Below, piece after piece: positions 2,816 through 28,520 of a stretch of 36,721 nt of DNA. This DNA comes from a virus. Every line of letters begins with the position of its first letter. Position 1 is the stretch's first letter. Under the pieces are notes generated by a model. It saw only the letters and a program-made list of their open reading frames with translations, made no database searches and was not told the origin of the DNA. The stretch lies in the IMG/VR virus record IMGVR_UViG_3300017605_000293, positions 1 to 36,721 of that record; one strand, written 5' to 3'. The position numbers and the translations under genes are program-made.

Positions 2816-3025
2816 ATGCCGTTTACCCAAACAGACCGCGAGAACCTGGCTCGAGCGATCGCGGAGGGCCGCGGCGCGCGATCGATGACGTTCGACAATC
2901 AAACCGTCGTGTTCAACTCGATCGACGACATGCTCAAGCTACTCGCGCGGATGGACGAGCAGATCGGGATCGCGAACGGAACACGCCGCGGGTACCGCGT
3001 CGCGACGACGCGGAAGGGCGTCTGA
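2816..3025 (+). CDS. Head-tail joining protein, gpW-like
   Basis: This 69-residue protein resembles lambda gpW (68 residues) in length, position and pattern: an N-terminal helix (TQTDRENLARAIAEG), a two-strand segment (RSMTFDNQTVVFNS) and a second helix (IDDMLKLLARMDEQI), followed by a basic tail (RRGYRVATTRKGV). gpW seals the portal channel after packaging. I prefer the ATG at 2816 over the in-frame GTG at 2792 because the latter lies inside the -10-like element and would add eight unrelated residues. The stop overlaps the next ATG (TGATG), so the methyltransferase is translationally coupled. In lambda the portal gene comes next; here a four-gene insert intervenes. Confidence 0.8.
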   Translation: MPFTQTDRENLARAIAEGRGARSMTFDNQTVVFNSIDDMLKLLARMDEQIGIANGTRRGYRVATTRKGV

Positions 3026-3615
3026 TGGCGGAGGCAACCTCCCGCGACGCGTGCATCGATCGACACCGGGCATACACGATCGACATTGCGACGCGCCTCA
3101 ATCCGAAACAGGTCGCGCGCCTCGAGGCGATGCTGGCGCCGGTTCGCGCCGGCGAGGCCGTGCTCGACGCCGGCTGTAACTCCGGATTCGTCGTCGATTT
3201 CCTCCCGCCGACGTGTACCGTCTCCGGCGTCGACGTCGCCGAACACCTCGTCGCGATCGCGCGCGGCCGCCTGGCGCGCGCCGACGTCGCGCCCGTCGAG
3301 GAGCTCCCGTACGCGGATCGTTCCGTCGACATCATCATCTACGGCGAGATCCTCGAGCACGTGTACGATCCCGTCGCCGTGCTCCTCGAGGGGCGGCGCG
3401 TCGCGCGTCGACTCCTGATCGGCTCCGTCCCGAACGAGCAGAGCAAGTGGGGCCCGACGGGCAAACACAAACCGGACGGGCACCCGTACCACGTCCGCGC
3501 GTTCACGGCGCGCACGCTGCAGGCGACACTTCGCCGCGCCGGCCTCCGGCCGATCAGTGTCAGACCGTTCGCGGATTTCTACCTATTCACGGCGGGCGTA
3601 CCGTGCGGGTCGTAA
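3025..3615 (+). CDS. Class I SAM-dependent methyltransferase (type 11-like)
   Basis: This 196-residue protein is predicted to transfer a methyl group from SAM to a small-molecule or sugar acceptor. It shows motif I VLDAGCNSG (residues 46-54), the acidic end of strand 2 at GVDVAE, and the motif IV/post-IV region SVDIIIYGEILEHVYDP. It lacks a DPPY-type tetrad, so it does not look like a DNA amino-methyltransferase; the pattern is that of UbiE/type 11 enzymes common in glycan and lipid pathways. It leads a run of three glycosyltransferases, so O-methylation of a glycan is the simplest guess. The last 13 bases overlap the next gene. The acceptor is unknown. Confidence 0.8.
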   Translation: MAEATSRDACIDRHRAYTIDIATRLNPKQVARLEAMLAPVRAGEAVLDAGCNSGFVVDFLPPTCTVSGVDVAEHLVAIARGRLARADVAPVEELPYADRSVDIIIYGEILEHVYDPVAVLLEGRRVARRLLIGSVPNEQSKWGPTGKHKPDGHPYHVRAFTARTLQATLRRAGLRPISVRPFADFYLFTAGVPCGS

Positions 3616-4235: not shown

Positions 4236-4990
4236 GCTCGAGGCCGCCGGTTCTCGCCGCGGCGTACTTCGGGAGCGGCAACGCCGGCGATCAGTATTCC
4301 CGCCTGGCGCGCGTGCTCGAGTACACGGCCGGCGTTCACTGTCCCGACTGGACGATCCGCGTCGAGCGCCTGGCGGCGCCGCCGGCGTATACCTCACACC
4401 TCGGCGTCCATTCTCACGTGACGAATTCTCAGAAGCTCGAGTGGTGGCGCTCCGTGATCGTCGACGCGGAGGACGGCGATCGCGTGCTCCTGATCGATGC
4501 CGACATGATGATCACGCGTCCGCTCGAGGCCGCCTGGGCGACGCCGTTCGATCTCGCCTACACGTACCGCGAGGAGGGCCGGCTCCCGCTCAACGGCGGC
4601 GTCGTGTTCGTCCGCGTGTCGCCGGCGTCGCGCCGGTTCGTCGATCGATGGTTCGCGATCAACCAGCTATTTCTCGGCGACGCGATCAAGCACAGGCAAT
4701 GGAGGACGAAGTACGCCGGGATCAATCAGGCCTCGTTCGGCTACATGCTCGAGCGCGAACGCGATCCCGCGCTCACGATCGCGCGGTTCACCTGTCACGA
4801 GTGGAACGCGGAGAACACGGCGTGGGCGAAGTTCGATCCGAACATCACGCGGATCGTTCACCTGAAAAGCGGGCTCCGTCGCGCTCTGTTCGGGATGCCG
4901 GCGCGTCCGGAATTTAAGAAACTGATCGCGCTCTGGCATTCCCTCGAGGCGGAAGCGAACGCGGCCGCGGCCGCCAGGCGGGCCGGATAG
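4232..4990 (+). CDS. GT-A-type glycosyltransferase (GT8-like)
   Basis: This 252-residue protein starts at a GTG that overlaps the previous stop (GTGA); in-frame ATGs at 4196 and 4220 would extend it back into the previous gene. The DxD motif is clear in LLIDADMMITRPL (D89, D91), followed by LPLNGGVVFVRVS, a pattern of GT8-like retaining enzymes in which the Asn-Gly-Gly loop binds the donor sugar. Later segments include NQASFGY and IVHLKSGLR, the latter resembling the metal-binding histidine region near the C-terminus of such enzymes. It ends with an Ala-rich tail. It is the second of three consecutive sugar transferases. Confidence 0.75.
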   Translation: MSSRPPVLAAAYFGSGNAGDQYSRLARVLEYTAGVHCPDWTIRVERLAAPPAYTSHLGVHSHVTNSQKLEWWRSVIVDAEDGDRVLLIDADMMITRPLEAAWATPFDLAYTYREEGRLPLNGGVVFVRVSPASRRFVDRWFAINQLFLGDAIKHRQWRTKYAGINQASFGYMLERERDPALTIARFTCHEWNAENTAWAKFDPNITRIVHLKSGLRRALFGMPARPEFKKLIALWHSLEAEANAAAAARRAG

Positions 4991-5787
4991 TGCGGATCAA
5001 CATCGTCACGAAACCCGGCTGGATCCTCGAGCGCCTGGCGCGCGAGCTCGTCGATCGAGTCGAGGGCGTCACGCTCAACGCCGGCGCAATCGTTCCGGGC
5101 GAACGCGCGATCTCACTCCTGGCTGATTACAACTATTACCTCCCGGCGAAAGACTTCCGGAAGTACCCGACGGGCGGCGCCGCGATCGGTTTCTACACGC
5201 ACGGCGAGAACGCGCTCGATCTGATCCCGCGGTTCTCCGCCTGTATCGCCATGAATCGGACGATGGCCGCGCGCCTCGAGGAGCACGGGGCGGAGAACGT
5301 CTCGATCATTCGGCCCGGCACCGACGCGCCGCCGCGGCCGATCGTGTTCGGCGTGATCGGCCGCACGTACAACGACGGGCGGAAGGGCGAGGAGCTCGTC
5401 GCGCGCGCCGTCGCCGACGGGTTCCGGTTCGTCGCCTGTGGCACCGACGGCGGCCGCCGCGCTCGAGCCATGACGCGCCGGCAATGGCCGTGCTCAACGC
5501 CGTACACGATCGCGACGCGTGACGCGTTCTATGAGGCGATCGACTATCTCGTCGTCACCTCGAGGGAGGAGGGCGGGCCAATGCCGGTACTCGAGGCGAT
5601 CGCGCGCGGCGTTCCCGTGATCGCGCCGAACGTCGGATGGTGTTGGGAGTTTCCGGTTCTTCGGTACGCCGTCGGCGAGTACTCCTCTCTCCGCCAGGTG
5701 CTCGAGCAACTGACGGCGCCGCCGTCCTGGGAACAATGGGGCCAGGCGCACGCGCGCCTGTTCGCCGCTCTCCGAAAGGTCGCCTAG
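4990..5787 (+). CDS. GT-B-type glycosyltransferase (GT4-like)
   Basis: This 265-residue protein begins at a GTG that shares one base with the previous stop. The C-terminal half has the GT4 signature: VVTSREEGGPMPVLEAIARGVPVIAPNVG, with the paired glutamates E194 and E202 of the EX7E motif that holds the nucleotide sugar. The N-terminal domain is short for the family (typical members exceed 350 residues), with IGFYTHGEN and CIAMNRTMAARLEEHG segments typical of the acceptor domain. A basic loop (GRTYNDGRKG) sits where the donor phosphate-binding loop is expected. It ends directly before the portal ATG, so it is transcribed with the head genes. Confidence 0.8.
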   Translation: MRINIVTKPGWILERLARELVDRVEGVTLNAGAIVPGERAISLLADYNYYLPAKDFRKYPTGGAAIGFYTHGENALDLIPRFSACIAMNRTMAARLEEHGAENVSIIRPGTDAPPRPIVFGVIGRTYNDGRKGEELVARAVADGFRFVACGTDGGRRARAMTRRQWPCSTPYTIATRDAFYEAIDYLVVTSREEGGPMPVLEAIARGVPVIAPNVGWCWEFPVLRYAVGEYSSLRQVLEQLTAPPSWEQWGQAHARLFAALRKVA

Positions 5788-7372: not shown

Positions 7373-7606
7373 ATGGCCGGCGAGCCTCCGACGACACACT
7401 GGCCTGACGATCGGCCGCGGCGCCGCGGCGGCCCGTATCTCGAGGCGGCGATCTCGCCGGCGGCCCTCGCCGCGAAGTGGGGCGTCGGCGTGCAAACGAT
7501 CTACCGCGACATCCGAAAAGGCGCGCTCCCCGCGTACCGGCTCCCTGGCGGCGATCTCCGGATCCGCATCCGCGACGCGCGCCGCTATGGAAAACCCGTC
7601 GAGTAA
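7373..7606 (+). CDS. Small HTH protein, excisionase/MerR-type
   Basis: This 77-residue protein carries an HTH of the excisionase (HTH_17) type: AISPAALAAKWGVGVQTIYRDIRKGALPAYRLPGGDLRIRIRDARRYG, where AAKWGVGVQTIYRDI is the helix-turn-helix and PAYRLPGGDLRIR is the wing. The first 25 residues are basic and proline-rich. It sits four bases after the portal stop and before the capsid gene, an unusual site for a DNA-binding regulator. It could be a regulator of late genes, an architectural factor, or a DNA-binding part of the head. Domain assignment is fairly sure; its job is not. Confidence 0.7.
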   Translation: MAGEPPTTHWPDDRPRRRGGPYLEAAISPAALAAKWGVGVQTIYRDIRKGALPAYRLPGGDLRIRIRDARRYGKPVE

Positions 7607-7680
7607 ATAGGCTTTTCGTGATCGCTCGCGGCGCTAGTCTCTTGCGACCGGCGCCGGCGCTCGCGCATCCTGGCGACATC

Positions 7681-9684
7681 ATGAAGTCGGGCGCGTCCGC
7701 AACGATCGACGTACCGCCGCTCTCACTCCTCGCGCGCGCGAACATCGCGACCGCGAATCAAGAGGATCGCTCCGTCGAGCTCGTGTTCTCGACTGGCGCG
7801 CCCGTCGAGCGGTACGACTGGATGGCCGATACCCGGTATCTCGAGCAACTCGAGATCTCGAAAAAGGCGATCCGCGTCGCGCGCCTGAATACGGCGCCGC
7901 TCCTCAATGCTCACTCCGCATGGTCGATCGAGGATCAGATCGGAACCGTCGTCGGCGGCTCGTTCCGGATCGACGGCGGGAACGCGATCGTCCGCGTGCG
8001 GTTCTCCTCGCGCGAGTCGGTCGCCGGGATCTGGCGCGACGTGCTCGACGGGATCGTCCAGAACGTCAGCGTCGGATATCGCGTTCACAAATTCGAGGAG
8101 GACGCGACCGGCGCGATCCCGGTTCGGACGGCCGTCGATTGGGAACCGTACGAAGTGAGCATGGTTCCGATGCCGGCCGACGTCGGCGCCCGCGTCCGTA
8201 ATCACGAAGTCGAAACGAATTCCTGTCTCATCATCCGCAAGGAGAATGCCGTGGCCGATCCCGCTCGCCGTTCCGAAACGATCGCCGAAGATCCCGCCGT
8301 CGCCGCGCTCCGTCTCACCGACGGCGCGCCCGGCTCGAGGCCCGCGGCGCCGGCCGCGACCGAACCGACGGACGTCGATCGCGCCGTCGCCGCCGAAACC
8401 GCGCGCGTCGAGGGCATCATGACGGCCGCGCGCGCCGGCCGGATGCCGCAGACGTTCATCGATCAGCACATCAAGGCGCGGACGCCGCTCGAGGAGGTTT
8501 CCCGCCTCGTGTTCGTCGAGCTCCAGGGGCGCAACGCACAGGACCGCGGCCCGCAGCCCGGCGCCGTATCCGTCACGCTCGGCGACGATCCGCTCGTTCA
8601 CGTGCGGGCCGGCATCGAGGCCGCGCTCTGTCATCGCGTCGCGCCGCAGTACTTCAAGCTCGACGACAAGAGCAAGCACTATCGCGGGCTCACGCTCCTC
8701 GACACGGCGCGCGCGTATCTCAACGCCGCCGGCGTGCGAACGTCGGGCCTGTCGAAGATGGAGCTCGCGGCCGCGGCCCTGGGCCTCAATCAGCGAGGCG
8801 GGCACGGCTACCACACGACGAGCGATTTCGCGTTCCTCCTGGCCGACGTCGCGAACAAAACGGTTCGCCGCGCGTACGAGGAGGCGCCGCAGACGTTCAA
8901 GACGATCGCGCGCCAGGTCAACCTCCCCGATTTCAAGCCGGTTTACCGGAATCAGATGGGAGACGCGCCGGCGCTCCTCGAGGTCAAGGAGCACGGCGAG
9001 TTCAAGCGGGGCACGATCGGCGAGGGCCGCGAGACGTACCAGCTTGCGACGTACGGCCGCGTGTTCGCGATCACGCGGAAGGCCCTCGTCAACGACGACG
9101 CCGACGCGTTCGGCCGCGTCCCGACGATGTTCGGGCGCGCCGCGCGGAACCTCGAAAGCGATCTCGTGTGGGATCAGATCACGAGCAACCCGACGATGGG
9201 CGACGGGGAGCTCCTGTTCTCCGCGGCTCACCTGAATTACGACGCGTCGGGCGACGTGATCGACGTCGATTCCCTGGGCGCCGCGCGCGCCGCGATGCGT
9301 CAGCAGGTATCGCTCGACGGCGAGCGGCTCAACATCGCGCCGAAGTACCTGATCGTGGGCTCCGCCCTCGAGACGCGGGCCGATGCCGTCGTCACGCCGA
9401 TCACGCCGGCGACGTTCGGCGCCGTCAATCCGTTCTCCGGCAAGCTCACGGTCATCGCGGAACCGCGGCTCGACGGCGAACCGCTGGCCTGGTACCTGTC
9501 GGCGGATCCCGCGCAGATCGACATCATCGAATACGGATTTCTCGAGGGCGAGGAAGGCCCGACGATCGAGACGAGGATCGGATTCGACGTCGACGGGATC
9601 GAGATCAAGTGTCGCGAGGACTTCGCGGCGAAGGTGCTCGACTGGCGCGGGCTCTACAAGAACGCCGGCGACGAGAACACGTAG
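7681..9684 (+). CDS. Fused prohead protease and major capsid protein
   Basis: One 667-residue product combines a U35-type prohead protease with the major capsid protein. The protease half (about residues 1-190) has the catalytic histidine in LLNAHSAWSIEDQIG, the catalytic serine in IVQNVSVGYRV and the closing EVSMVPMPADVGARVR typical of these enzymes. A low-complexity linker follows. The capsid half (about residue 300 on) includes ALCHRVAPQYFKLDD, FAITRKALVNDDADAFGRVP and a C-terminal EGPTIETRIGFDVDGIEIKCREDFAAKVLDWRG, a pattern of fused capsid proteins. I chose the ATG at 7681; the frame is open upstream but overlaps the HTH gene. The AT-richer stretch before it holds a weak -10-like TAGTCT (7635-7640). 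Self-cleavage would release the shell protein. Confidence 0.85.
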   Translation: MKSGASATIDVPPLSLLARANIATANQEDRSVELVFSTGAPVERYDWMADTRYLEQLEISKKAIRVARLNTAPLLNAHSAWSIEDQIGTVVGGSFRIDGGNAIVRVRFSSRESVAGIWRDVLDGIVQNVSVGYRVHKFEEDATGAIPVRTAVDWEPYEVSMVPMPADVGARVRNHEVETNSCLIIRKENAVADPARRSETIAEDPAVAALRLTDGAPGSRPAAPAATEPTDVDRAVAAETARVEGIMTAARAGRMPQTFIDQHIKARTPLEEVSRLVFVELQGRNAQDRGPQPGAVSVTLGDDPLVHVRAGIEAALCHRVAPQYFKLDDKSKHYRGLTLLDTARAYLNAAGVRTSGLSKMELAAAALGLNQRGGHGYHTTSDFAFLLADVANKTVRRAYEEAPQTFKTIARQVNLPDFKPVYRNQMGDAPALLEVKEHGEFKRGTIGEGRETYQLATYGRVFAITRKALVNDDADAFGRVPTMFGRAARNLESDLVWDQITSNPTMGDGELLFSAAHLNYDASGDVIDVDSLGAARAAMRQQVSLDGERLNIAPKYLIVGSALETRADAVVTPITPATFGAVNPFSGKLTVIAEPRLDGEPLAWYLSADPAQIDIIEYGFLEGEEGPTIETRIGFDVDGIEIKCREDFAAKVLDWRGLYKNAGDENT

Positions 9685-10142: not shown

Positions 10143-10508
10143 ATGGATCTGTCGTCGCTCCGCGCGCTCGTTCGGAATCTCAATTTCGGGGCGTTCGGAG
10201 TCGACGCGGTTCTCGAGGCGGATCCCGCCAACATCGCGACGCGCGGAATTTGGCTCACGCCGGAAACGGACGATTACCCGGCGGGAACCGATCTCCGGCG
10301 TCGCGAACGTTCGTACGTGCTCGCCGTTCCGCTCGCCGACGTTCCGCACGGCGCGATCATCCTCGCGCCGCTCCCGCCGTTCGCCGCCGATCTCGTCAAC
10401 CCGCCGGCGCCTGGCGCGATGCTCCGCTGGCAGGTCGACGGGTTCGCCGGCGTCGAGAGCGACCATACGCGGCTCCGGCTCATAGCGGCGCCGCTCGAGG
10501 AAACCTAA
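10143..10508 (+). CDS. Probable head-tail connector protein (gpFII position)
   Basis: This 121-residue protein lies between the decoration protein and the tail terminator, where lambda has FI/FII and where head-closure proteins of similar size are found. It shows an N-terminal helix (DLSSLRALVRNLNFG) and then beta-rich sequence: DAVLEADPANIATRGIWLTPETDD, RRRERSYVLAVPLADVPHGAIILAPLP and a C-terminal GVESDHTRLRLIAAPLEE. The strand-rich pattern suits a small barrel adaptor. I do not recognise a specific family motif, so the function rests on position and size. Confidence 0.45.
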   Translation: MDLSSLRALVRNLNFGAFGVDAVLEADPANIATRGIWLTPETDDYPAGTDLRRRERSYVLAVPLADVPHGAIILAPLPPFAADLVNPPAPGAMLRWQVDGFAGVESDHTRLRLIAAPLEET

Positions 10509-10515
10509 GCGGGCC

Positions 10516-11892
10516 ATGGCTTACGAGTGGACGGAAATCAACGGGACGAACGTTCCGCACGCCGAACACACGGCCGCGAACCTGGGCGGGTTCTGGTGGA
10601 CGTGCGGCGCCTCGCAGGACGATCTGTTCGCCGTCTCACTCGAGCGCGCGAACGAGCTCGCGATCGCGTGGACGGCTCAGAACCTCCCGCAGGCCCTCGT
10701 CGATCATGGCGGCGCCGTCTACCGCGGCCGCGTGTACGTGTTCGGCGGGCTCGTCAAAAACGGGTTCGCCGGCGTCCAGGCGAGCGCATGGAGATCGCTC
10801 GACGGCGATAGCTGGAACGTCCTGGCGGATATGCCGCTCGCCGTCGGGCTCCCGGCCGTCGGCGTGTGGCAGGACAACATCGTCGCGATCGGCGGGTTCA
10901 CGGCCGCGGGCCCGAACACGCAACGGATCCAGATCTTCAACGCCGACGTAAACGACTGGACGGATCTCGGCGATCTGTTTCCGCTCCCGCTGTACGCCGC
11001 GTGCTGTGGCGTGATCGACGAGTGGATCTATGTGTGGGGCGGATTTAACGACGTCGCCGTCGCGCAATCGCGAAAGGTGTTCCGGAGCAACGATCTCGCG
11101 ACGTGGACGGAGGTCGGATCCGACGCGCTCCCCTACGGCGTCGAGGGCGCCGCGGGCCTCGTGTTCGACGGGAAGCTCTGGACGATCGGCGGGTTCGACG
11201 GATCGAACGGACGGGCGGAGTCGTGGTACTCGAGCAATGGCGGGCTCACGTGGACGGCGGGCCCGTCGCTCCCGCAACCGATCGACTACGGCGCCGCGGC
11301 GGCGAACGCGACGCAGATCGTACACTCCGGCGGATACGAAACCGTCGGCGGGCTCCCGATCACGAACGTCTATCGCCTCGAGGCGATCGCGCCGCCTCCG
11401 CCTCCGCCGGTTCCGACGATCCCGAAGCGGCTCGTCATCCTCGAGCGCCTGGCGCTCCTGGCGTCGACGATCCGGATCGCGAACGGGTTCCGCAGCGACG
11501 CCGGCCTCCGCGTGTATCTCGGCGCCGCTCCGGAGCTCGGCCCGAACGATCCGCCCGACGCGATCGCGATCGTGCCGCGCGACGATCTCGCACAGGAGCA
11601 AGGGCGGATCTCCGTCGTGTTCCCCGTCGAGGTGCAGGCGATCGGGAACGCGTCGCTCGAGGCGCCCTGGCGCGCGGTCGAATTCCTGATCGCCGATCTC
11701 AAGATCGCGATCGAGCTCGAGGATCGCACGCTCGGATCGCTCCTCAAGGGCGTCATGTCACGAGGGCCGACGCGCACGCTAGAGCGGGTTCCGGGCGTTA
11801 CGACGATGGGCGTCGGGATCGTTTACTTCTGTCCGTTTATCGAGGAGTGGGGCAACCCGGCGTACGGTTCGCCGATCGAGGAGGAGACGTAA
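10516..11892 (+). CDS. Kelch beta-propeller fused to tail terminator protein
   Basis: One uninterrupted frame of 458 residues joins two unrelated parts. Residues about 20-290 carry Kelch repeats: Gly-Gly doublets at 77-78, 126-127, 175-176, 225-226 and 272-273, spaced 47-50 residues apart, each preceded by hydrophobic strands (RVYVFGG, NIVAIGG, WIYVWGG, KLWTIGG) and usually followed by a tryptophan. With a possible sixth blade from the N-terminus (WWTCGASQDDLF) a closed propeller is plausible. After a six-proline linker (293-298), residues 302-458 look like a tail terminator (gpU-like): helix, RISVVFPVEVQAIG, a helix AVEFLIADLKIAIEL, and GVTTMGVGIVYFCPF. The terminator hexamer sits at the head-tail joint. 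Position before gpZ-like and tube genes fits. The fusion is unlike any tail terminator I know. Confidence 0.8.
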   Translation: MAYEWTEINGTNVPHAEHTAANLGGFWWTCGASQDDLFAVSLERANELAIAWTAQNLPQALVDHGGAVYRGRVYVFGGLVKNGFAGVQASAWRSLDGDSWNVLADMPLAVGLPAVGVWQDNIVAIGGFTAAGPNTQRIQIFNADVNDWTDLGDLFPLPLYAACCGVIDEWIYVWGGFNDVAVAQSRKVFRSNDLATWTEVGSDALPYGVEGAAGLVFDGKLWTIGGFDGSNGRAESWYSSNGGLTWTAGPSLPQPIDYGAAAANATQIVHSGGYETVGGLPITNVYRLEAIAPPPPPPVPTIPKRLVILERLALLASTIRIANGFRSDAGLRVYLGAAPELGPNDPPDAIAIVPRDDLAQEQGRISVVFPVEVQAIGNASLEAPWRAVEFLIADLKIAIELEDRTLGSLLKGVMSRGPTRTLERVPGVTTMGVGIVYFCPFIEEWGNPAYGSPIEEET

Positions 11893-11896
11893 GCAC

Positions 11897-12484
11897 GTGG
11901 GGATGACTGTTCGGTTCACGACGACGACGCCGGCGGCCGTCGCGAAGCTCCGCGCGAGAGCGGTTCCCGCGCAGGTTCGCGCGCTCAACCGGGCGATCGG
12001 CTCGTCGAATACGGCTATGGTCCGCGTGATCGCCGGCGATCTCGGCGTCAAACAGGGCGTCGTGAAAGAACGGATCCGCGTCGAGCTCGCGACGCCGGCC
12101 AGGCTCCGCGCCAGGCTCTACGCGAACGCGAAGCGGATCCCGCTGATCGATCTCGGCGCGAAGGGCCCGGAACCGTCTCGCGGCCGCGGCCGCGGCGTCA
12201 CCGTCAAGGGCGCGAGCGGCCGCCGCACGATCCCGAACGCGTTTATCGCGACGATGAGGAGCGGGCATCGCGGCGTATTCGAGCGGGCCGCCGGCTCGAG
12301 CGGCCGCCGCGGGCCGGCGCCGATGCGATCGCAGCTTCCGATCCGCGAGCTATTCGGCCCGTCGATCTGGAAGGTGTTCACGAAATTCGAGAGTGTCGGC
12401 CTCGCGCGGGGCCGCGAGCAACTGATCAAAAACTTGCAAAGCGAATTCCGCTTTGCTCTGGCCGCTCGTGACGCGGCCGCATAA
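11897..12484 (+). CDS. Minor tail protein Z-like (tail completion)
   Basis: This 195-residue basic protein resembles the lambda gpZ/prophage minor tail Z family, which acts in tail maturation near the head-tail joint. Features are an N-terminal helix pair (AVAKLRARAVPAQVRALNRAIGSSNTAMVRVIAGDLGV), the segment VVKERIRVELATPARLRARLYA and IPLIDLGAKG, and a late FIATMRSGHRGVFERAAG that recurs in the family, then RSQLPIRELFGPSIWKVF. I use the GTG at 11897, well placed after GGAGGAG; the ATG two codons later is an alternative. In lambda Z precedes U; here the terminator part comes first. Confidence 0.7.
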   Translation: MGMTVRFTTTTPAAVAKLRARAVPAQVRALNRAIGSSNTAMVRVIAGDLGVKQGVVKERIRVELATPARLRARLYANAKRIPLIDLGAKGPEPSRGRGRGVTVKGASGRRTIPNAFIATMRSGHRGVFERAAGSSGRRGPAPMRSQLPIRELFGPSIWKVFTKFESVGLARGREQLIKNLQSEFRFALAARDAAA

Positions 12485-12498
12485 GAGGAGCAGCAACC

Positions 12499-13110
12499 AT
12501 GAGGAATGCCGTACCGCTCGAGGTTCTCGCCGCACCGTTTACGATGTACGTCGCGCCCGTCGGAACCCCGTTCCCTGAGGTCGATCAGGAACCGGATTCG
12601 ACGGACTGGACGCTCGTCGGCGCCGCCGGCCCGCTCAATTACGACGAGGCCGGCGTGAACGTCGAGCACTCGCAATCGATGGCGTTCTGGCGCTCCCTGG
12701 GCGACGCCGGTTCGCGGAAGGTGTTCCGCTCGAGCGAGGATCTCAAGATCGGGCTCATGCTCGTCGACGTGACGCTCGAGCAGTATTCCTTCGCGCTCAA
12801 CGGAAACACCGTCACGCCGACGGCCGCGGCGCCGGGCACGCCGGGCACGAAGAAGATCGGCCTGTCGCGCGGGTTCGTCGTCGACACGCGCGCCGTTCTC
12901 CTCCGCGGCCCGTCGCCGGAGATGGAGGACGGCGTGATGCAATACGAATGTCCGCGCGCCGCGCAGACCGGCGAACCGAAGCCGGTTTTCACGAAGGACA
13001 AGCCGGCGATGCTCGCGATCGAGTGGACGGCGCTCGTCGATCCGTCGGCGACCGATCCCTCGGAGTACTTCGGGCGGATCGTGACGCAGACCGCGATCGC
13101 GGAGTCGTAG
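12499..13110 (+). CDS. Tail tube protein
   Basis: This 203-residue protein is probably the major tail tube subunit that stacks in rings below the terminator. It is beta-rich, with an N-terminal VLAAPFTMYVAPVGTPFPE and DWTLVGAAGPLNYDEAGVNVEHSQ typical of tube proteins related to gpV, then SSEDLKIGLMLVDVTLEQYSFALNG, and a C-terminal FTKDKPAMLAIEWTALVDPSA strand region. Size and order (after terminator and Z, before chaperones and tape measure) agree. It has a strong ribosome binding site (AGAGGAG) nine bases before the ATG, suiting high expression. No extra Ig-like domain is attached at its C-terminus. Confidence 0.8.
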   Translation: MRNAVPLEVLAAPFTMYVAPVGTPFPEVDQEPDSTDWTLVGAAGPLNYDEAGVNVEHSQSMAFWRSLGDAGSRKVFRSSEDLKIGLMLVDVTLEQYSFALNGNTVTPTAAAPGTPGTKKIGLSRGFVVDTRAVLLRGPSPEMEDGVMQYECPRAAQTGEPKPVFTKDKPAMLAIEWTALVDPSATDPSEYFGRIVTQTAIAES

Positions 13111-14037: not shown

Positions 14038-16803
14038 ATGGCAGGCGAAGCGGCCCTGGGGCGCGCAGTACTCGAGCTCTCAACCGACGGAAAGCAACTC
14101 GACGCCGGCCTGGCCGACGTTCCGAAAAAGGTTCAAAAGGTCGGCGAGTCGGTCAAGGGTCTATCCGGATCGCTCGGCCAGGTGAACGGGCTCCTCGAGA
14201 CGTTCGGCGTCGGACTCTCGATCGGCGCCGTCGTCGCGTTCGGGAAGTCGGTTCTCGATCTCGCCGATAACATCGTCAAGGTTCACGACAAAACCGGCCT
14301 CGCGACCGACGACGTTCAACGGCTCCAGTACATCGCGGAGCAATCCGGCAACTCGATCGACGATCTCAGCGGCGCGATCTCGAAACTACAGGTACGGCTC
14401 GCCGACGGGAAAGCGAAAGCCGGGATCGAGGCCCTGGGCCTCAACTTCAAAAAGATCCGCGAGGAGTCGCCGTACGACGCTCTATCCGACGTCGCGGAGG
14501 CGATCGGCAAGATCGAGAACCCGACGCTCCGCGCGCAACGCGCCGTCGAGGTGTTCGGCAAGGCCGGAACGGAAATCCTCCCGACGCTCGTCTCGAATTT
14601 CAAAGAGCTCGGCGCCGCGGCGCCCGTGATGAGCGAGGAAACCGTCCAGGCCCTCGACGCCGCCGGCGACGCGATCGGCCGGTTCGGATCGACGCTCAAG
14701 GTATGGGCCGCGGAGTCGTACAACTACGCGCGCGGATTTTTCGACAAGCTCGTCGCCGAAACCTATCGCATGGTTCAACGGCTGTACGAGAACGCCGCCG
14801 GCCTGGCCGCGCTCGCGGCGAAGCTCCCCGGCGCGAGCAAGCTCGGGATCGATCAGAAGCTCGTCGACGGGCTCAAGGAATCGGCGATCTGGTACGGCAA
14901 CGTCGCAAAGGCGATGGATACGACGACGGTCGCGGCGACGAAAAACAAGCCGGCGATCGCGGCGCTCCCGCCGGTTCACGAGAAGCTAAGCGCGGAAGCG
15001 AAAAAGGCCGCGGAGGCGCTCCAATCGCTCACTGACAAATTGAGCGGCGCCGACACGGCGAAACAGGTCGCGCTCCTCGATACCGCGCTCCGGGCCCTCG
15101 AGAAAACCGGGAAGCTCACCGGCGCGCAAATGAAGGCGATCGGCGACGCGGCGAAATCGCTCCGCGACGAGGGCGCGATCCTAACGCCGCGCCTGGCGGA
15201 GCTCGCGCGCATTCAGGATCTCGTCGCGATGGCGACGAAAAACGCCGCGGCCGCCGCGAAGGAACAGGAGGACGCGTACAAGCGATCGAACGCGGCCGCC
15301 GGCGTGTATATCGCGAACCTCCCGACGGCGATCTTCAAGACGCGATCGTTCGCCGGCGCCGTCGCTCAGGTGTCCGCGGAGGCGGCGACGTACCAGGGCA
15401 ACCTGGCAAACTCGAGGCGCGCGACCGTCGATTGGGGCGCCGCGCTCGAGAACGTTTCTCGCATCCTGGCGCAAGGGTTCACCGGCGGCGGGATCATGGG
15501 CGCCGCGATCTCCGCGCTCTCGTCGATCTCGAAAGCGATCGACGTCGCGGCCGCGTCGACAAAGCAATGGGGCAACTCCGCCGGCGTCGCGGCGCCTCTG
15601 TTCTCGAGCACGGCGACGGGCGCGCAAAAGGCCGCGGCCGCGGTCGCGACGGGCGCGACGATCGCGTCGGGCGCGATGGAGGTGTGGAGCGCCACGAGCG
15701 AGAAAACGGGAAAGGCCGTCGGCGCCCTACACGGCGCCGTCGCCGGCGCGAAAGCCGGCGCCGCGTTCGGGCCCTACGGCGTCGCGATCGGCGCCGTCGC
15801 CGGCGCGCTCGTCGGCCTGATCCGGAACCTCAACGCCGGCCGCGATGCCGTCGTCAAATTCGCGAATTCATTCGACACGGCGGCCGCGGGTTCCGGATTC
15901 GACGAGCTCCACGCGAAGCTCCTCAAGGTCGCCGGCGGCGAGCAGCTATGGATCGATCTCACTCAAAAAGTCGCGAAGGGCGACACGAAAGCGGCCGCGA
16001 AAGCGATCGAGGCGATCAACGCGGCGCTCGCCGATCAGGACAATTGGTTACAGCGGCTCCCCGGCGTGCTCGAGAAGTACGGGATCGCCTGGGAGCAGGC
16101 CGGCCAGGCCGTCAACCAGGCGCGCCTCGACGAAGTAGCGAAGCAACTGATCCAAGACTTCGCCGATCTCTCGAGGGCCGGCGTCGACGTCGACGTCATC
16201 ACGACGAAGATGAGCGACTCCGTAAACGCCTACATACAGGACGCGATCCGCACCGGCACGGAGATCCCGCCGGCTATGCGGCCGCTCCTGCAAAAAATGA
16301 TCGAGCTCGGCACGCTCACCGACGCGAACGGAAACAAGATCACCGATCTCGAGGGCAGCGGGATCACGTTCGCGCAAACCATGACGGAGGGGTTCCAGTC
16401 CGTCGTCGCGGCGATCAAGGAATTGACGAAGGCGCTCGGCGGCGTCGGCGATGCCGTGAACAAACTTCCGAACGAGAAAACGATCGAGTTCAGGGGAAAG
16501 AAAACCGGCGACTGGCCGACGGGCCGCGAGGGCGACGGCGAGGGCGGCGACAGCGGCGAACCGCCGGCCGTCCCAATGGCGAAGGGCGGATCCGGCCGCG
16601 TGCTCCGGCCGACGCTGTTTTTCTCGAGGGGTAATGAGGACTTCGCATTCTCCGGCGAGGGAAAGCAATTCGGCCTGGGCGCGCTCGCCTCGAGGCCGAT
16701 CGTGATCGAGAACACGACGACGCTCGACGGGCGCGTCGTCGCGCGCAATCAGGCGCGCCACATTCCGAACGAGCTCGCGCGCGTCGGCGTGAGGAGTCGA
16801 TAA
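14038..16803 (+). CDS. Tape measure protein
   Basis: This 921-residue protein sets tail length and occupies the tube lumen. It begins GEAALGRAVLELSTDGKQLDAGLADVPKKVQKVGES, a typical opening with an ALELS-like strand and an amphipathic coil. Long helical stretches follow (LQVRLADGKAKAGIEALGL, AEALQSLTDKLSGADTAKQVALLDTALRALEK). Residues about 561-598 are a Gly/Ala-rich hydrophobic stretch (GAKAGAAFGPYGVAIGAVAGALVG) of the kind thought to insert in or contact the host membrane. The C-terminus (MAKGGSGRVLRPTLFFSRGNEDFAFSGEGKQ) resembles the conserved C-terminal cap of this family. Using about 1.5 angstrom per residue, a tail of roughly 130-140 nm would be expected. Confidence 0.9.
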   Translation: MAGEAALGRAVLELSTDGKQLDAGLADVPKKVQKVGESVKGLSGSLGQVNGLLETFGVGLSIGAVVAFGKSVLDLADNIVKVHDKTGLATDDVQRLQYIAEQSGNSIDDLSGAISKLQVRLADGKAKAGIEALGLNFKKIREESPYDALSDVAEAIGKIENPTLRAQRAVEVFGKAGTEILPTLVSNFKELGAAAPVMSEETVQALDAAGDAIGRFGSTLKVWAAESYNYARGFFDKLVAETYRMVQRLYENAAGLAALAAKLPGASKLGIDQKLVDGLKESAIWYGNVAKAMDTTTVAATKNKPAIAALPPVHEKLSAEAKKAAEALQSLTDKLSGADTAKQVALLDTALRALEKTGKLTGAQMKAIGDAAKSLRDEGAILTPRLAELARIQDLVAMATKNAAAAAKEQEDAYKRSNAAAGVYIANLPTAIFKTRSFAGAVAQVSAEAATYQGNLANSRRATVDWGAALENVSRILAQGFTGGGIMGAAISALSSISKAIDVAAASTKQWGNSAGVAAPLFSSTATGAQKAAAAVATGATIASGAMEVWSATSEKTGKAVGALHGAVAGAKAGAAFGPYGVAIGAVAGALVGLIRNLNAGRDAVVKFANSFDTAAAGSGFDELHAKLLKVAGGEQLWIDLTQKVAKGDTKAAAKAIEAINAALADQDNWLQRLPGVLEKYGIAWEQAGQAVNQARLDEVAKQLIQDFADLSRAGVDVDVITTKMSDSVNAYIQDAIRTGTEIPPAMRPLLQKMIELGTLTDANGNKITDLEGSGITFAQTMTEGFQSVVAAIKELTKALGGVGDAVNKLPNEKTIEFRGKKTGDWPTGREGDGEGGDSGEPPAVPMAKGGSGRVLRPTLFFSRGNEDFAFSGEGKQFGLGALASRPIVIENTTTLDGRVVARNQARHIPNELARVGVRSR

Positions 16804-16804
16804 C

Positions 16805-19800
16805 ATGCCCACACCGCGCGCGGGAACCGTCGGCGTCATCATCAACGGCACCGACTCAGGTACCAGGCTCAACGCGACGTACGCGTGGTACGACGCCGCG
16901 AACGCTGATCTCTCGCCGGATGCGATCGCGGGGCCTCCGCCGATCCCGGCCATCGGCGGCCCTGGCGACGGCCCGAACCTCCTCGAGTGGCGCGAGTCGG
17001 GAATGCCGTTCGGTTCGGAGCAATCAAAGATCTCGTACAGCGGAACGATCCCGCCGGGAATGTACCTCGTTCAAAAAGAGGTACGCGAGGAGGATCCGCC
17101 CGGCTGGAATCCCTGGCCTGTCGGCGTCCTGGCGGAGTGGGGATGGGCCGGCGTTCCGACGACGCCGGGCGTCTACAACGTCACCGTCAACGCGTCATCG
17201 CATTCGGGATCCGCCGGCTACCCGGGCGGCGATTTCACGTGGACGATTAGCCTCGCCGGCGGCTGTCCGCTGATCACGATCGAACCCGACACGATCGATC
17301 TCGAGTTCGTCGGGCAACCGATCGATCTGACGTTCACGGCGGAGGACGGCGTCGCGCCGTACGTGTGGGACGTCGCGTTCGGGGAGCTCCCCGACGGGCT
17401 CGCGCTCTCGAGCGGCGGCGAGCTCACGGGCGCGCCGACGACGGCCGGCGACTATGAATTCACGATCCGCGCGACCGATGACAACGGCTGTGCAGGCGCG
17501 CGCGTGTATTCGCTCTCGATCGTCGAGCCTGATCCGATCGTCGTGCATCCGGACGATCCGACGCTCGCGCCTGGCGCCCGCGGCTGGCTCTATCTGCAAC
17601 TGTTCACGGCGACGGGCGGCGTCGGCGAACCGTACGTATTCACGATCACCGACGAGAGCGACGACACCGGCCTCCCGCCGGGCCTCACGCTCTCGCCTGG
17701 CGGCGTCCTGGCGGGCCTCCCGCAATTCGCCGGCCTGTTCGTGTTCACCGTGCGCGCGACCGACGTCGCCGACAATTTCGGCGAGCGGGAATACACGCTG
17801 CAGATCACCGGCCTCCGGATCGAGATCAGCGACGGCGGCCCGGGCGAACCGATGATCGATCGAACGATCGACGTGTCGGCCGGCGACGTCGAGCTCACGC
17901 TCAATCGCCAGGCGTCGGCGACGCTCGAGCTCGGCGACGTCGACATTCCCGCTCGAGGTGTGGACGTCCTGATCTATCGGCGCGACGGGATCACGCCGAT
18001 GTTCGGCGGCGTCGGCCTCGTGCGGCGCGTCTCCGGCATCGTGCCGCAGAACCCCGGCAACAAGATCGATCTCGATTGCGTCGACTACTCGATTTACTTT
18101 GACGATGCCGTCGTCACGCTCGTATACACGACGACGCAAGATCTCGAGGACGTGATCACGGCGATCGTCGATCAGGCGCTCGCCGTCTACGGGATCACGT
18201 ACACGCCGACGGCCACGGGGAAAACGGTTCCGCCGATCGAGTGGCGCGAGATCACCGTGACCGACGCGTTCAAGCGGATCACCGACGGAACGGGCGTCGT
18301 CTTTCGCGTGCTCCCGCTCAAGGATCTCGACGTGTTCACGCCGCTCGACGACGCGGCGCCCGTCACGATCACCGACGCGGAGATCAACGCGTTCGATCTC
18401 GAGTGGAAGGATCCGCCGAACCTCCCGCGAAACACGGTCGATCTCCTGTGCGGCCCGAACGGCAACGGGATCGCCGATCAGCATTGGGAGGTCGACTCCG
18501 GCGAGGTGTCCTGGGAAGTCGACATCCAGGCCGTTCTCGGCAACGCGGAACCCGCGCACCGGGCGAACGCCTATTTCTCTCCCGTCGACGCGACTAACTT
18601 TTCGGCCGGCGATACCGTCGGCGTCGGGAGCTCGACGTACACGTTCCGCGCGTCGCTCGTCGGCGACGTCGCCGGCGAGGTGCTGATCGGCGCGACCGTC
18701 GAGGACTCGATCGGAAACCTCAACGCGGCGATCAACCTGGCCGGCGGAGGCAACTACGCGCCCTCGACGCCGGCGAATGCCGACTGCTCGAGCTATCTCC
18801 GCGCGCCCGATATCCTCGAGGCCGACGCGCTCACCGTCGGCGCCGCCGGCAATGCGATCGCCGTCACGAGCTCACACGAGGCCGTCGCGTTCTGGTACGG
18901 CGAGGGCTCGATCCCGCGCTCGACGCTGCAACTCGGATCCGACGCGACCGGCGTCGCCGGCTGGACGCAGGGATACGTGCTCGAGGATGGCGCCGTCGCG
19001 CGGACGATCAGCACGCCGGCCGACGGCAACGGCTATTACTTTTGGGACGTCACCGACGGCCGCGGAACGATCTCTGTCGGCATGGGGGCGGCGCCGCTCG
19101 AGGGAACCGATCTCGAGCTCAAGTATCTCGCCGTGTTTCCGTTCCACGCGATCGCGCCGCCCGGAGGCGGCTCGCCGCCGATCGTGTTCCGCGAGAACCA
19201 TCCGGAGATCGTCAGCTACGCCGACGGGATCGCGCTCGCGACTCAGATCCTCGCGCGCGAGAGCGCCGATCGCCGCGAGCTCGAGGCGACGACCGACGTC
19301 GAGGGATTCCTGCCCGGCCAGGCGCTCACCGTCGATACGACGTTCCGCGGCGGGATCGATGCCGTGTTTCTCGTCGCGACCGTGCGCGCGCATATCGTGA
19401 ACGCGGAACTATGGGAGTACTCGCTCACGAATCAGCAAACCGACGAGTACGCCGGCTCGTACGTCGAGCAATGGAAGGCGCTCACGTCGGGCGGCTCGAG
19501 CTCCTCGAGCGCCGCGTCGGGAACGCTCGTCGACGGCGGCGCGAGCGCGAGCGGCGACGTCTACACCGACGGCCGGAACGCGTTCCGCGCCGATCAGTCC
19601 ATGGGCGCTCACAAGCTCCGGTTCGTCGAGGATCCGACCGATGCACAGGACGCGGCGACGAAGGCATACGCCGACGCCGGCGACGCGGCCGCCCTGGCCT
19701 CCGCGCTCGCCGCGGCCGTGCTCGTCGACGGCTCGAATGATTTCACGGCGGATCAATCGATGGGCGGAAACAAGCTCACCGATCTCGACACGCCGACGAG

Positions 19801-20986
19801 CGCCGACGACGCGGCGACGAAGGCATACGTCGACGCGAGCGCCGGCGGAGGTTCCGGCGATCACGGGTTTTTCGCGATGGGCGGCGGATTGTACTCACTC
19901 GCCGCGGGCCCGATCATCCTCCGGCCGACGGGAACGACGCTCACGTTCATCGTCGGGATCGGGTTCGTCAGCACCGGCGATGCGACCGTATACGCGAACG
20001 TGCAGCTTACCGATTGCGATCTCGCCGACGCGCGCGCCGTGATCAATAACTCGCTCGTGTCATTCGGCGGGCAGCATCTATTCGGCCTCGTTCACATAAC
20101 CGGACTTACCGCGGGGAAAGACTACGTCGCGACGCTCCAGTACTCCTCGAGGCGTGCGGCCGCGGCGATCGGCGGCGGCCCTGGGCCCGGGCAACCGTTC
20201 CTAGTCGCGCTCGATTTCATCACGGCGATCGTCGCGGCGTCGCTCGAGACGGCGCAGGCGTCGAGCTCCGGAACGTTCGTCGATCTCGCGACCGCGGGCC
20301 CGTCCGTGACGATCACGCTCGCGAGCGATGGCCTGATCGCCGTGATCGCCGGCGACTCCGAAAACCGCGTCCAGACGGGAACGAGCAACCTCGGGATCGA
20401 CGTGTCGGGCGCGACGACGCTCGCGGCCGCGGCGTTCGTCCAAGAGTCGACGAACGGCGCGCAGAATTGCGTACTTCAGGGCGGGATCATGCTCGCGCGC
20501 CAGGCGAGCGGCTCGACGACGTTCAAGCTCCAGTACTCGAGCGACGGCGGGAGCAATACCCGGTACGCGCGATGGATCGCCGCCATGAAGGGCGTTTTCG
20601 GCGACACGCCGATTACGTTCGGCGTCTCGAAAGTCGAAACGGCGGAGACGACGAATTCGACGACGTACGTCGGGCTCACGACGGCCGACACGATCACGAT
20701 CACCACGGGTACCTCCGTGCTCGTCCTGTTCTCCGTCAACTTCCGCGGGAGCGGCGTTCTCGACGCGTCGGTCGCCGTCGACGTGAGCGGCGCGACGACA
20801 ATCGCGGCCGCGGATGGCACCTCGAATGCGAAGAACATCGGATCGACGACGCAAACCTGGCACGTCGGCCGCGGCGTGGTTCTCACCGTCAACGCCGGAT
20901 CGAATACGTTCAAACTGAAGTACAAAGTAAGCGCGAACACGGGTACGTTCCTGGGCCGCGTGTTCGTCGTGATCCCGCTCAACTGA
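16805..20986 (+). CDS. Large tail hub/fibre protein with Ig-like and collar repeats
   Basis: This 1393-residue protein follows the tape measure gene and seems to replace several separate tail-tip genes. Residues about 154-240 and 246-335 are two putative Ig domains of the bacterial He_PIG type (FTAEDGVAPYVWDVAFGELPDGLALS; TDESDDTGLPPGLTLSPGGVLAGLPQFAG). Residues about 340-880 resemble a baseplate-hub module (QASATLELGDVDIPARG, then TDAFKRITDGTGVVFRV), which would form the tube-closing ring. Residues about 920-1015 hold two copies of the fibre motif (QSMGAHKLRFVEDPTDAQDAATKAYAD; QSMGGNKLTDLDTPTSADDAATKAYVD). The last 260 residues are two related beta-rich modules, each with a VDVSGATT(L/I)AAA core, probably the receptor-binding tip. 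Confidence 0.75.
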   Translation: MPTPRAGTVGVIINGTDSGTRLNATYAWYDAANADLSPDAIAGPPPIPAIGGPGDGPNLLEWRESGMPFGSEQSKISYSGTIPPGMYLVQKEVREEDPPGWNPWPVGVLAEWGWAGVPTTPGVYNVTVNASSHSGSAGYPGGDFTWTISLAGGCPLITIEPDTIDLEFVGQPIDLTFTAEDGVAPYVWDVAFGELPDGLALSSGGELTGAPTTAGDYEFTIRATDDNGCAGARVYSLSIVEPDPIVVHPDDPTLAPGARGWLYLQLFTATGGVGEPYVFTITDESDDTGLPPGLTLSPGGVLAGLPQFAGLFVFTVRATDVADNFGEREYTLQITGLRIEISDGGPGEPMIDRTIDVSAGDVELTLNRQASATLELGDVDIPARGVDVLIYRRDGITPMFGGVGLVRRVSGIVPQNPGNKIDLDCVDYSIYFDDAVVTLVYTTTQDLEDVITAIVDQALAVYGITYTPTATGKTVPPIEWREITVTDAFKRITDGTGVVFRVLPLKDLDVFTPLDDAAPVTITDAEINAFDLEWKDPPNLPRNTVDLLCGPNGNGIADQHWEVDSGEVSWEVDIQAVLGNAEPAHRANAYFSPVDATNFSAGDTVGVGSSTYTFRASLVGDVAGEVLIGATVEDSIGNLNAAINLAGGGNYAPSTPANADCSSYLRAPDILEADALTVGAAGNAIAVTSSHEAVAFWYGEGSIPRSTLQLGSDATGVAGWTQGYVLEDGAVARTISTPADGNGYYFWDVTDGRGTISVGMGAAPLEGTDLELKYLAVFPFHAIAPPGGGSPPIVFRENHPEIVSYADGIALATQILARESADRRELEATTDVEGFLPGQALTVDTTFRGGIDAVFLVATVRAHIVNAELWEYSLTNQQTDEYAGSYVEQWKALTSGGSSSSSAASGTLVDGGASASGDVYTDGRNAFRADQSMGAHKLRFVEDPTDAQDAATKAYADAGDAAALASALAAAVLVDGSNDFTADQSMGGNKLTDLDTPTSADDAATKAYVDASAGGGSGDHGFFAMGGGLYSLAAGPIILRPTGTTLTFIVGIGFVSTGDATVYANVQLTDCDLADARAVINNSLVSFGGQHLFGLVHITGLTAGKDYVATLQYSSRRAAAAIGGGPGPGQPFLVALDFITAIVAASLETAQASSSGTFVDLATAGPSVTITLASDGLIAVIAGDSENRVQTGTSNLGIDVSGATTLAAAAFVQESTNGAQNCVLQGGIMLARQASGSTTFKLQYSSDGGSNTRYARWIAAMKGVFGDTPITFGVSKVETAETTNSTTYVGLTTADTITITTGTSVLVLFSVNFRGSGVLDASVAVDVSGATTIAAADGTSNAKNIGSTTQTWHVGRGVVLTVNAGSNTFKLKYKVSANTGTFLGRVFVVIPLN

Positions 20987-25787: not shown

Positions 25788-26639
25788 ATGCTCCCCGCTC
25801 CCTACTACGATCACGACGGGATCACGATCTACCGGGCCGACTGTTTCGAGGTGCTACACGAGCTCGAGGGCGTCGGCGCGTACGTGACGGATGTTCCGTA
25901 CTCGAGCGGCGGCGCGTTCCGCGGCGATCGGATGTTCTCGACGCTCAGCAAGTACGCGAGCTCCGATAGTTCACAGCAAGCCGGGATCGGGTTCACCGGC
26001 GACAATCGGGATCAGCGGGCGTTCGCCGCATGGTGCGCGCTCTGGATGACGGCGGCCCGCGGCGCCGCGGTCGAGGGCGCGACGTTCGCGACGTTCATCG
26101 ACTGGCGGCAACTCCCGACGATCACCGACGCGATCCAGGCCGGCGGATGGGTATGGAGGGGCGTCGGCGTCTGGTCGAAGAAATTCGGCCGGCCGCGCGA
26201 CGGCGGGTTCTCCGGCGCGTGCGAGTTTCTCCCGTGGGCCTCGCACGGCCCGCTCGCGGAAAACGGCGCGTATCCGTCCGGAGGTTTCGAGTACTCGCCG
26301 CCTCCCGTCTCGAGGCGTCATCACCTGGCGGAGAAACCGCTCGCCGTGATGGAGTGGGCAATGGCGAACGTTCCCGCCGGCGCCCTCGTCGTCGATCCGT
26401 TCATGGGCTCCGGCTCGACGCTCGTCGTCGCCAGGCGCCGCGGGCTCCGCGCGATCGGGATCGACGTCGACGAGCGGCAATGTCGGATCGCCGTCGGCCG
26501 ACTCTCACAGGGGATGCTCCCGGGCCTGGCGCTCGAGGCCCTCGAGGAATTCGAGGACGTCGACGCCGGCGAGCTCGAGGCGCCCGCGGTCGAGCTCACT
26601 CCGGACGTCGGCGCGCCGCTCCGGCTCCCGCTGGCGTAG
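25788..26639 (+). CDS. DNA amino-methyltransferase, beta-class order, DVPY motif
   Basis: This 283-residue protein has the layout of N6-adenine/N4-cytosine DNA methyltransferases of the beta class. The catalytic tetrad comes first (TDVPYSSGG, residues 34-42), then HHLAEKPLAVMEW, and the SAM-binding motif I near the C-terminus (VVDPFMGSGSTLVVARRRGLRAIGIDVDE, D203 to about E229). The tetrad reads DVPY instead of the usual DPPY; the catalytic Asp and stacking Tyr remain. A long acidic tail follows the domain. There is no partner endonuclease, so it is an orphan enzyme that probably shields phage DNA or marks it for other modification. Translation may be leaderless. Confidence 0.85.
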   Translation: MLPAPYYDHDGITIYRADCFEVLHELEGVGAYVTDVPYSSGGAFRGDRMFSTLSKYASSDSSQQAGIGFTGDNRDQRAFAAWCALWMTAARGAAVEGATFATFIDWRQLPTITDAIQAGGWVWRGVGVWSKKFGRPRDGGFSGACEFLPWASHGPLAENGAYPSGGFEYSPPPVSRRHHLAEKPLAVMEWAMANVPAGALVVDPFMGSGSTLVVARRRGLRAIGIDVDERQCRIAVGRLSQGMLPGLALEALEEFEDVDAGELEAPAVELTPDVGAPLRLPLA

Positions 26640-27457: not shown

Positions 27458-27723
27458 TGGCCGCCCTCCTCCTCCCCGTGATCGCGCGGCTCGTCGGCCG
27501 ATGCGCGAACGGCGCCGAACGCGCCGGCGGGATCCGCTCTCACGTGATCATGGCGGAGGGCCTCGGCCTCTCGTCGCCGTGTTACGCGACGGCGATCTGT
27601 GGCGCGAAACCCGGCCGGCTCTCGAATGGATGGGAGGAGCTCGACGGCGCCGAACGGCCGACGTGTTCCCGATGCGATCGGATCGCGGCGCGCCAGGGGC
27701 GCGAGCTCGAGGCCGCGCGATGA
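27457..27723 (+). CDS. Zinc-finger-like 88-residue protein
   Basis: This small protein has a C-terminal CxxC pair (PTCSRC) and an upstream cysteine pair (CYATAICGAKPG), a four-cysteine arrangement that fits a zinc ribbon. The spacing HVIM..CYATAICGAKPGRLSNGWEEL..PTCSRC resembles many small phage proteins of unknown role. Phage Mu mom is activated in translation by the zinc-finger protein Com, encoded just upstream and overlapping mom; here a zinc-ribbon protein also overlaps the Mom-like gene by four bases. The parallel is suggestive but I see no sequence identity to Com. Confidence 0.6.
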   Translation: MAALLLPVIARLVGRCANGAERAGGIRSHVIMAEGLGLSSPCYATAICGAKPGRLSNGWEELDGAERPTCSRCDRIAARQGRELEAAR

Positions 27724-28520
27724 CGCCGACGGTTCAACGCTGGCGCGAGCGCCGGGCCTCGTATCGGCCCGCCGGCGAGACGATCAACCCGCGCGAGTAC
27801 GAGGTCGCGCCGATCGAGTCGGACACGATCGCGAAGGGGTTCGTCCTGGCGCATCACTACGCCGGCACGTATCCGGCCGCGCGGGTCCGCGTCGGACTCT
27901 ACCGCGGCGGCGAGCTCGCCGGCGTCGCCGTGTTCTCGCATCCGTGCAACGATGCCGTCTTGACGAACGTATTCGAGGCGCCGGCGCTCGAGACGATCGA
28001 GCTCGGTCGATTCGTGCTCCTCGACGACGTTCGCGGGAACGGCGAGACGTGGTTTCTCGCGCGATGTTTCGAGGAGCTCCGCGGCCGCGGGTTCCGCGGC
28101 GTCGTCTCGTTCAGCGATCCGATCGCGCGCGTCGACGGCGCCGGCCGCCGCGTGTTCCCCGGGCACCTCGGAACGATCTACCAGGCGCACAACGGCCGGT
28201 ACTTGGGCCGCTCGTCGGCGATCTCTATGCTCCTCCTCGCGAACGGCCAGGTGCTCAGCAAACGGGCGATCTCGAAAATTCGCGCCGGCGAGCGCGGCTG
28301 GCACTACGCCGCGGCGCTCCTCGAGGCCGCAGGCGCGACGCCGGCGCCGCTCGAGGGCGAGGCCCGGGCCGCCTGGCTGGCCGCCTGGCTCCCGCGCGTG
28401 ACGCGTCCTGTGAGGCATCCTGGCAACCATCGGTACGCCTGGCCGCTCGAGCGCCGCACGCGGATCCTCCTCGAGTCGCTCCCGTATCCGAAGCTCGCCG
28501 CGGCGCCGGCGGCCGCCTGA
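27720..28520 (+). CDS. mom: Mom-family DNA modification protein (adenine carbamoylmethylation)
   Basis: This 266-residue protein matches the phage Mu Mom family, GNAT-fold enzymes that convert adenine in DNA to N6-carbamoylmethyl-adenine and so block many restriction enzymes. Key parts are AKGFVLAHHYAGTYPAARVRVGLYRGGELAGVAVFSHP, a helix-strand unit ELGRFVLLDDVRGNGETWFLARCFEEL, GVVSFSDP (residues 128-134), and the signature GHLGTIYQAHNGRYLGRSS (148-166). It is longer than Mu Mom (about 230 residues) by a C-terminal arginine-rich segment. Its ATG overlaps the zinc-ribbon gene stop. Expression from the strong promoter P1 without obvious methylation control would differ from the tight Dam/OxyR control in Mu. 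Confidence 0.75.
   Translation: MTPTVQRWRERRASYRPAGETINPREYEVAPIESDTIAKGFVLAHHYAGTYPAARVRVGLYRGGELAGVAVFSHPCNDAVLTNVFEAPALETIELGRFVLLDDVRGNGETWFLARCFEELRGRGFRGVVSFSDPIARVDGAGRRVFPGHLGTIYQAHNGRYLGRSSAISMLLLANGQVLSKRAISKIRAGERGWHYAAALLEAAGATPAPLEGEARAAWLAAWLPRVTRPVRHPGNHRYAWPLERRTRILLESLPYPKLAAAPAAA

Follow-up and report, generated by a model that had tools for sequence, protein, structure and literature searches.

Tail terminators are regarded as small, constrained ring proteins. The gene at positions 10516..11892 (+ strand) of the window analyzed here, the whole 36,721-base record of an uncultured virus, raises the question of whether such a protein can carry a Kelch beta-propeller, and what the propeller might be doing there. 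As originally predicted, the gene is a single open frame with exactly these coordinates: 458 codons (458 aa) run uninterrupted from ATG to TAA with no internal stop, and GC3 and codon use are like those of the neighboring structural genes. GC3 is equal (0.88) on either side of the junction between the Kelch and terminator portions and matches that of the neighbors, and codon preference, also in line with theirs, is 0.704 vs 0.703 across it. This continuity argues against a chimaera and makes a frame error unlikely; of the frameshift that had been named as fatal to the prediction, these measures give no sign. We consider the fusion real and confirmed at the level of the one contig sequence from which it is known.

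The N-terminal portion (residues 1-291; 10516..11388, +) is a Kelch beta-propeller by Pfam, Kelch chains in the PDB, AlphaFold strands and phage Kelch proteins in BFVD. The Pfam matches for residues 1-291 are well beyond chance (PF24681, 2.6e-15; Kelch_6, 1.1e-8), and four families lie above their curated cut-offs in the fusion protein (PF24681, PF13964, PF01344 and PF07646). The propeller half matched PDB Kelch chains, including a KLHL3 structure at 3.6e-11, and among the viral models in BFVD Foldseek matched it to phage Kelch proteins (4e-14), several of which are named as virion structural proteins. Known phage Kelch domains do occur in virion proteins, after gpI in phiERICV and in virion proteins of PhiPA3 and Noxifer. 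The Kelch domain gave no matches as a query against viral_contigs and genome_contigs, and the Kelch of phage D6, used as a query, found no loci.

The GG doublets typical of Kelch repeats lie at residues 77, 126, 175, 225 and 272 (spacing 49, 49, 50 and 47), just as in the original prediction, which had counted five blades from them. The positions and the 47-50 residue spacing stand, but the count does not: the strands predicted by AlphaFold fit six four-stranded blades if the strand at residues 2-8 (10519..10539, +) closes the last one, and a degenerate blade 1 (about residues 19-56; 10570..10683, +), with four predicted strands, had been overlooked. Blades 2 (residues 64-105, GG 77; 10705..10830, +), 3 (114-152, GG 126; 10855..10971, +), 4 (163-200, GG 175; 11002..11115, +) and 5 (213-248, GG 225; 11152..11259, +) are each marked by Pfam, AlphaFold strands and the GG motif, and blade 6 (260-291, GG 272; 11293..11388, +) by the strands and the motif. 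A W-T motif at residue 5 is the counterpart of the W found at the ends of the other blades. The propeller is thus best read, with modest confidence, as six-bladed, the N-terminal strand serving as the fourth strand of blade 6. The full-length AlphaFold model was built from a single distant Kelch sequence and a single terminator sequence; a large MAFFT alignment, in which Kelch rows had been placed over the terminator, was left out of folding. In this model pLDDT was mostly 52-87 per 10-residue block in the Kelch half and below 50 in the C-terminal half, so the model does not predict how the two domains are arranged. Between them lies a proline-rich linker, APPPPPPVP (residues 292-300; 11389..11415, +), whose hexaproline, noted from the start, occupies residues 293-298, exactly at the join.

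The C-terminal portion (residues 301-458; 11416..11889, +) is a tail terminator (gpU-like) domain, as identified by its relatives, synteny and fold. On its own it had no match in Pfam, aligned weakly with PHROG terminators (E 0.16-0.5) and, as a query against viral_contigs and genome_contigs, gave no matches; a match to a Microbacterium phage 'SprT-like protease' (E 0.04) was set aside as chance. Relatives were reached through the neighboring Neck1 gene (22 related loci) and then by alignments. Many of these loci encode, immediately upstream of Neck1, a stand-alone protein of ~150-160 aa that can be aligned to residues 301-458; the closest of these homologs are 156-158 aa long, 54-65% identical to the domain and in the same gene position, and distant relatives match phrog_4204 (tail terminator) at 5e-7 and 2.2e-6. 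Modeled by itself, as had been suggested, the domain was predicted with a pLDDT of 81 to form a sheet flanked by two helices (H4-16 and H84-102), which is the terminator fold, and the top PDB matches of this model in Foldseek were the neck terminator of phage Chi (8vhx_C, 7e-6), lambda gpU (2.4e-5) and T5 p142 (1e-4). The original assignment of a terminator is therefore borne out by the family match of the relatives, by position and by fold, the direct family match being weak.

The surrounding genes place the fusion where a siphophage terminator is expected, in a neck-tail cluster with stopper, gpZ-like and tube genes as neighbors. Upstream are the large terminase (phrog_15, 4e-241), a lambda-type portal, a head protease and major capsid protein joined in one 735-codon frame (7477-9684; phrog_4523, 1e-216), a head decoration gene (from 9756) and a 121-aa stopper/head-completion-like gene (10143..10508, +), which is the conserved upstream neighbor in 52 junctions and is FII/stopper-like by position only. 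Downstream follow the tail completion/Neck1 (gpZ-like) gene (11897..12484, +; phrog_27, 3.2e-30; Pfam Minor_tail_Z, 5.9e-19), the tail tube protein (12499..13110, +; phrog_117, 8e-4; PF25681, 6e-4) and the tape measure protein (14038..16803, +; phrog_9483, 2.6e-15). No sheath gene was seen in the interval from terminator to tape measure, which makes a siphophage most likely. The window also encodes a 1393-aa tail protein (16805-20986) that has putative Ig (He_PIG) domains and matches a minor tail protein; glycosyltransferase-like (4990-5787, 4e-8) and methyltransferase-like (3025-3615, 5e-6) genes between terminase and portal; and, close together at 25788-26639 and 27501-28520, a DNA methyltransferase and a Mom-like DNA modification protein (6.5e-27).

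At the DNA level, the terminator has lost its own start. Alignment places an ACG (11416..11418, +) at the native start position, which reads ATGATC in relatives and ACGATC here (native gene start in relatives, ATGATCACG; aligned bases in the fusion gene, ACGATCCCG). There is no in-frame ATG, GTG or TTG between codons 216 and 333, and just upstream of the ACG, where the stretch is C-rich, there is no purine-rich ribosome-binding site. Because the ATG has become ACG and that interval holds no in-frame start, the fusion is obligatory: the terminator has no start of its own. We rejected an internal re-start at GTG 11512 (codon 333), which would cost the domain its first helix (modeled at residues 304-316).

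Among 54 distinct terminators (the fusion plus 53 more; one cut off by a contig end was left out), all 53 others start at or near the native place, so the N-terminal fusion occurs in one of 54, and the search of other phage genomes that had been proposed found it in none of these related terminators. Nor did Kelch turn up in any of 21 related records, a set that includes fragments. The tree nests the fusion's terminator among the stand-alone ones with support of 0.80-0.995, and Kelch was thus gained in one lineage. One relative departs from the usual form in a different way: the 233-aa terminator of locus L023 (L023:598-1296) has ~75-100 extra beta-rich residues inside, between model positions 108 and 126.

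The place at which Kelch entered has received other genes. In 48 of 52 distinct loci the stopper-like gene and the terminator are butt-joined (-17 to +16 bases apart), and the remaining four have an insert: the Kelch of the fusion (907 bases); 966 bases in L006/L007, encoding a 248-aa protein (L007:4543-5286) with a weak tail-fiber match (1.8e-4); 2512 bases in L009, encoding a 588-aa protein (L009:3008-4771) that is fiber-like by motif only, its family matches being marginal; and 634 bases in L052, whose product (L052:683-1303) matches PF23140, 'Podophage GP4 fiber I protein gp80', at 8e-35, and also phrog_240 'head protein' (4.9e-17) and, weakly, CBM_5_12 (0.011). Since these four loci lie in separate tree branches and their inserts are mostly of fiber or surface type, accessory virion genes, mostly of these types, seem to have been acquired repeatedly in this slot, a pattern drawn from four cases in which two assignments are weak. 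The neck may be where some related phages add surface-binding parts. The stopper-like protein of L009 (L009:2433-3005) is itself unusual, at 191 aa vs about 122 in the others; the extra C-terminal stretch is similar to part of gp359 of Bacillus phage G (45% over 67 residues), so that this, too, is a neck ring protein bearing an added domain.

The explanation that we favor, and consider probable as a whole, starts from this slot. A gene of virion-surface type would have entered between stopper and terminator and lost its own stop, and the terminator its start codon, leaving a terminator subunit whose N-terminus bears a six-bladed Kelch propeller. Six such subunits would cap the tail tube and link it to the stopper ring, as lambda gpU does, with each propeller held on a stiff proline linker so that up to six of them would collar the neck. 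The hexamer, the outward display and a binding role would together make the propellers an accessory, low-affinity, multivalent adhesin for a glycan or host surface, like the carbohydrate-binding modules (CBMs) found at other necks. As the role of the propellers we would prefer weak multivalent attachment to a glycan or surface of the host, at about an even bet, because the CBMs of lactococcal neck passage structures bind host cells (PMC6669499) and the head-tail adaptor of phage DEV has an outward lectin-like insert (PMC10925440). A point against this role is that the CBM of the A-1(L) neck fiber did not bind its host (PMC10966104). We put forward more tentatively the broader view that the slot is a recurrent site of adhesin acquisition in this phage group, with a covalent outcome here: a receptor- or glycan-binding collar of six propellers, fixed in stoichiometry, on a long-tailed phage.

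Kelch domains also bind proteins, often, and the proline linker spans only about 9 residues. Both facts suit the main rival, a structural brace for the neck: packed against the stopper or against the first ring of the tube, the propeller would in effect be a covalent terminator decoration protein. In phage 812, decoration proteins of the stopper and of the terminator exist separately and are thought to reinforce the joints (PMC12886913). We nevertheless regard a brace as rather unlikely, since relatives with 60% identical terminators lack the propeller and the other inserts in the slot look like fiber or surface proteins, unlike braces. An improbable alternative is that the propeller regulates assembly, either by holding the terminator as a monomer up to its encounter with the tail tube or by being cleaved off during maturation. 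It draws on the T5 terminator, which stays monomeric with an N-terminal His tag and forms fibers when tagged at the C-terminus, and whose N-terminus is at the subunit interface (PMC11784142); that an N-terminal domain could thus hinder ring formation also speaks against the collar that we favor. Against regulation, none of the 53 other terminators examined has such a domain, neither a partner nor a protease site is evident, and the Pro6 linker would not be a typical cleavage site.

That the fusion occurs in only one contig would also fit an assembly chimaera or a sequence error that joined a separate Kelch gene to a terminator gene, but we think this very improbable: besides the unbroken GC3 and codon use, the upstream gene is intact, the proline linker sits exactly at the join, and the loss of a stop alone would have left the terminator its ATG, whereas there is an ACG and no other start. 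Least likely is that the propellers gate the DNA channel in the manner of the podophage T7 nozzle gp12, a hexamer whose six beta-propellers close the channel (PMC6702177), because those propellers are seven-bladed, form the channel wall of a short tail and are unrelated to the six-bladed Kelch found here on a long-tail terminator with a tape measure present, because the terminator sheet lines the lumen with its helices flanking, so that a domain added at the N-terminus would not have to reach the channel, and because relatives manage without a propeller.

The C-terminal domain shares fold, neck-tail gene position and length with the siphophage terminators lambda gpU, T5 p142 and that of phage Chi (8vhx_C), but these are about 130-167 aa long and have no propeller, whereas the fusion has 300 residues before the domain. 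Terminators with additional domains are also known from myophages, PVCs and related machines (PMC11784142), although in T4 gp15 and the PVC cap the additions are for sheath termination or are duplicated terminator folds rather than a Kelch propeller. The neck passage structures or neck fibers of the 936 group and TP901-1 and of A-1(L) likewise put binding-type domains at the neck; they do so as separate proteins attached to it, unlike the terminator-borne Kelch. In place of the parts of the 936/TP901-1 structures (a BppU-like N-terminal ring domain, a coiled coil and a C-terminal CBM, from a separate gene), we find Kelch plus terminator, and at most the fusion works like a neck passage structure. 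The adaptor of phage DEV, gp83, is a neck ring protein with a covalent domain of sugar-binding type, the outward-facing lectin-like insertion being 101 residues long (PMC10925440), but the ring (adaptor) and the domain are different and the insertion is internal.

The Kelch propeller is shared with phage proteins from phiERICV (a structural protein), PhiPA3, Noxifer, CBB and EL, several of them annotated as structural; those examined lie in a tail fiber context or are separate proteins, and none is joined to a terminator. One uncultured phage protein in BFVD (A0A6J7WP33, 404 aa) has a model that matches the terminator fold (Foldseek 3.2e-5, with a loose superposition, rmsd 9.4) and carries not Kelch but DUF1566, a domain discussed in papers on diversity-generating retroelements; this protein may likewise join a terminator to a binding domain, possibly a hypervariable one. 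In the open-access papers searched we found no description of a Kelch-terminator fusion (in texts with both 'kelch' and 'tail terminator', the former is throughout the cited author B. A. Kelch), and within that literature the original claim that no terminator with a propeller had been described holds. The novelty is nonetheless narrower than that claim implied: terminators and other neck rings with extra domains, and adhesion modules at the neck, were already known, and what is new is Kelch joined to a terminator.

That a terminator tolerates a 300-residue domain suggests that the head-tail joint can serve as a display platform, and the fusion would be a natural display design, predicted to be present in six copies. 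The slot in its relatives offers a simple handle for finding neck adhesins in genomes. If the propellers do bind the host surface, contact between phage and host would extend beyond the tail tip.
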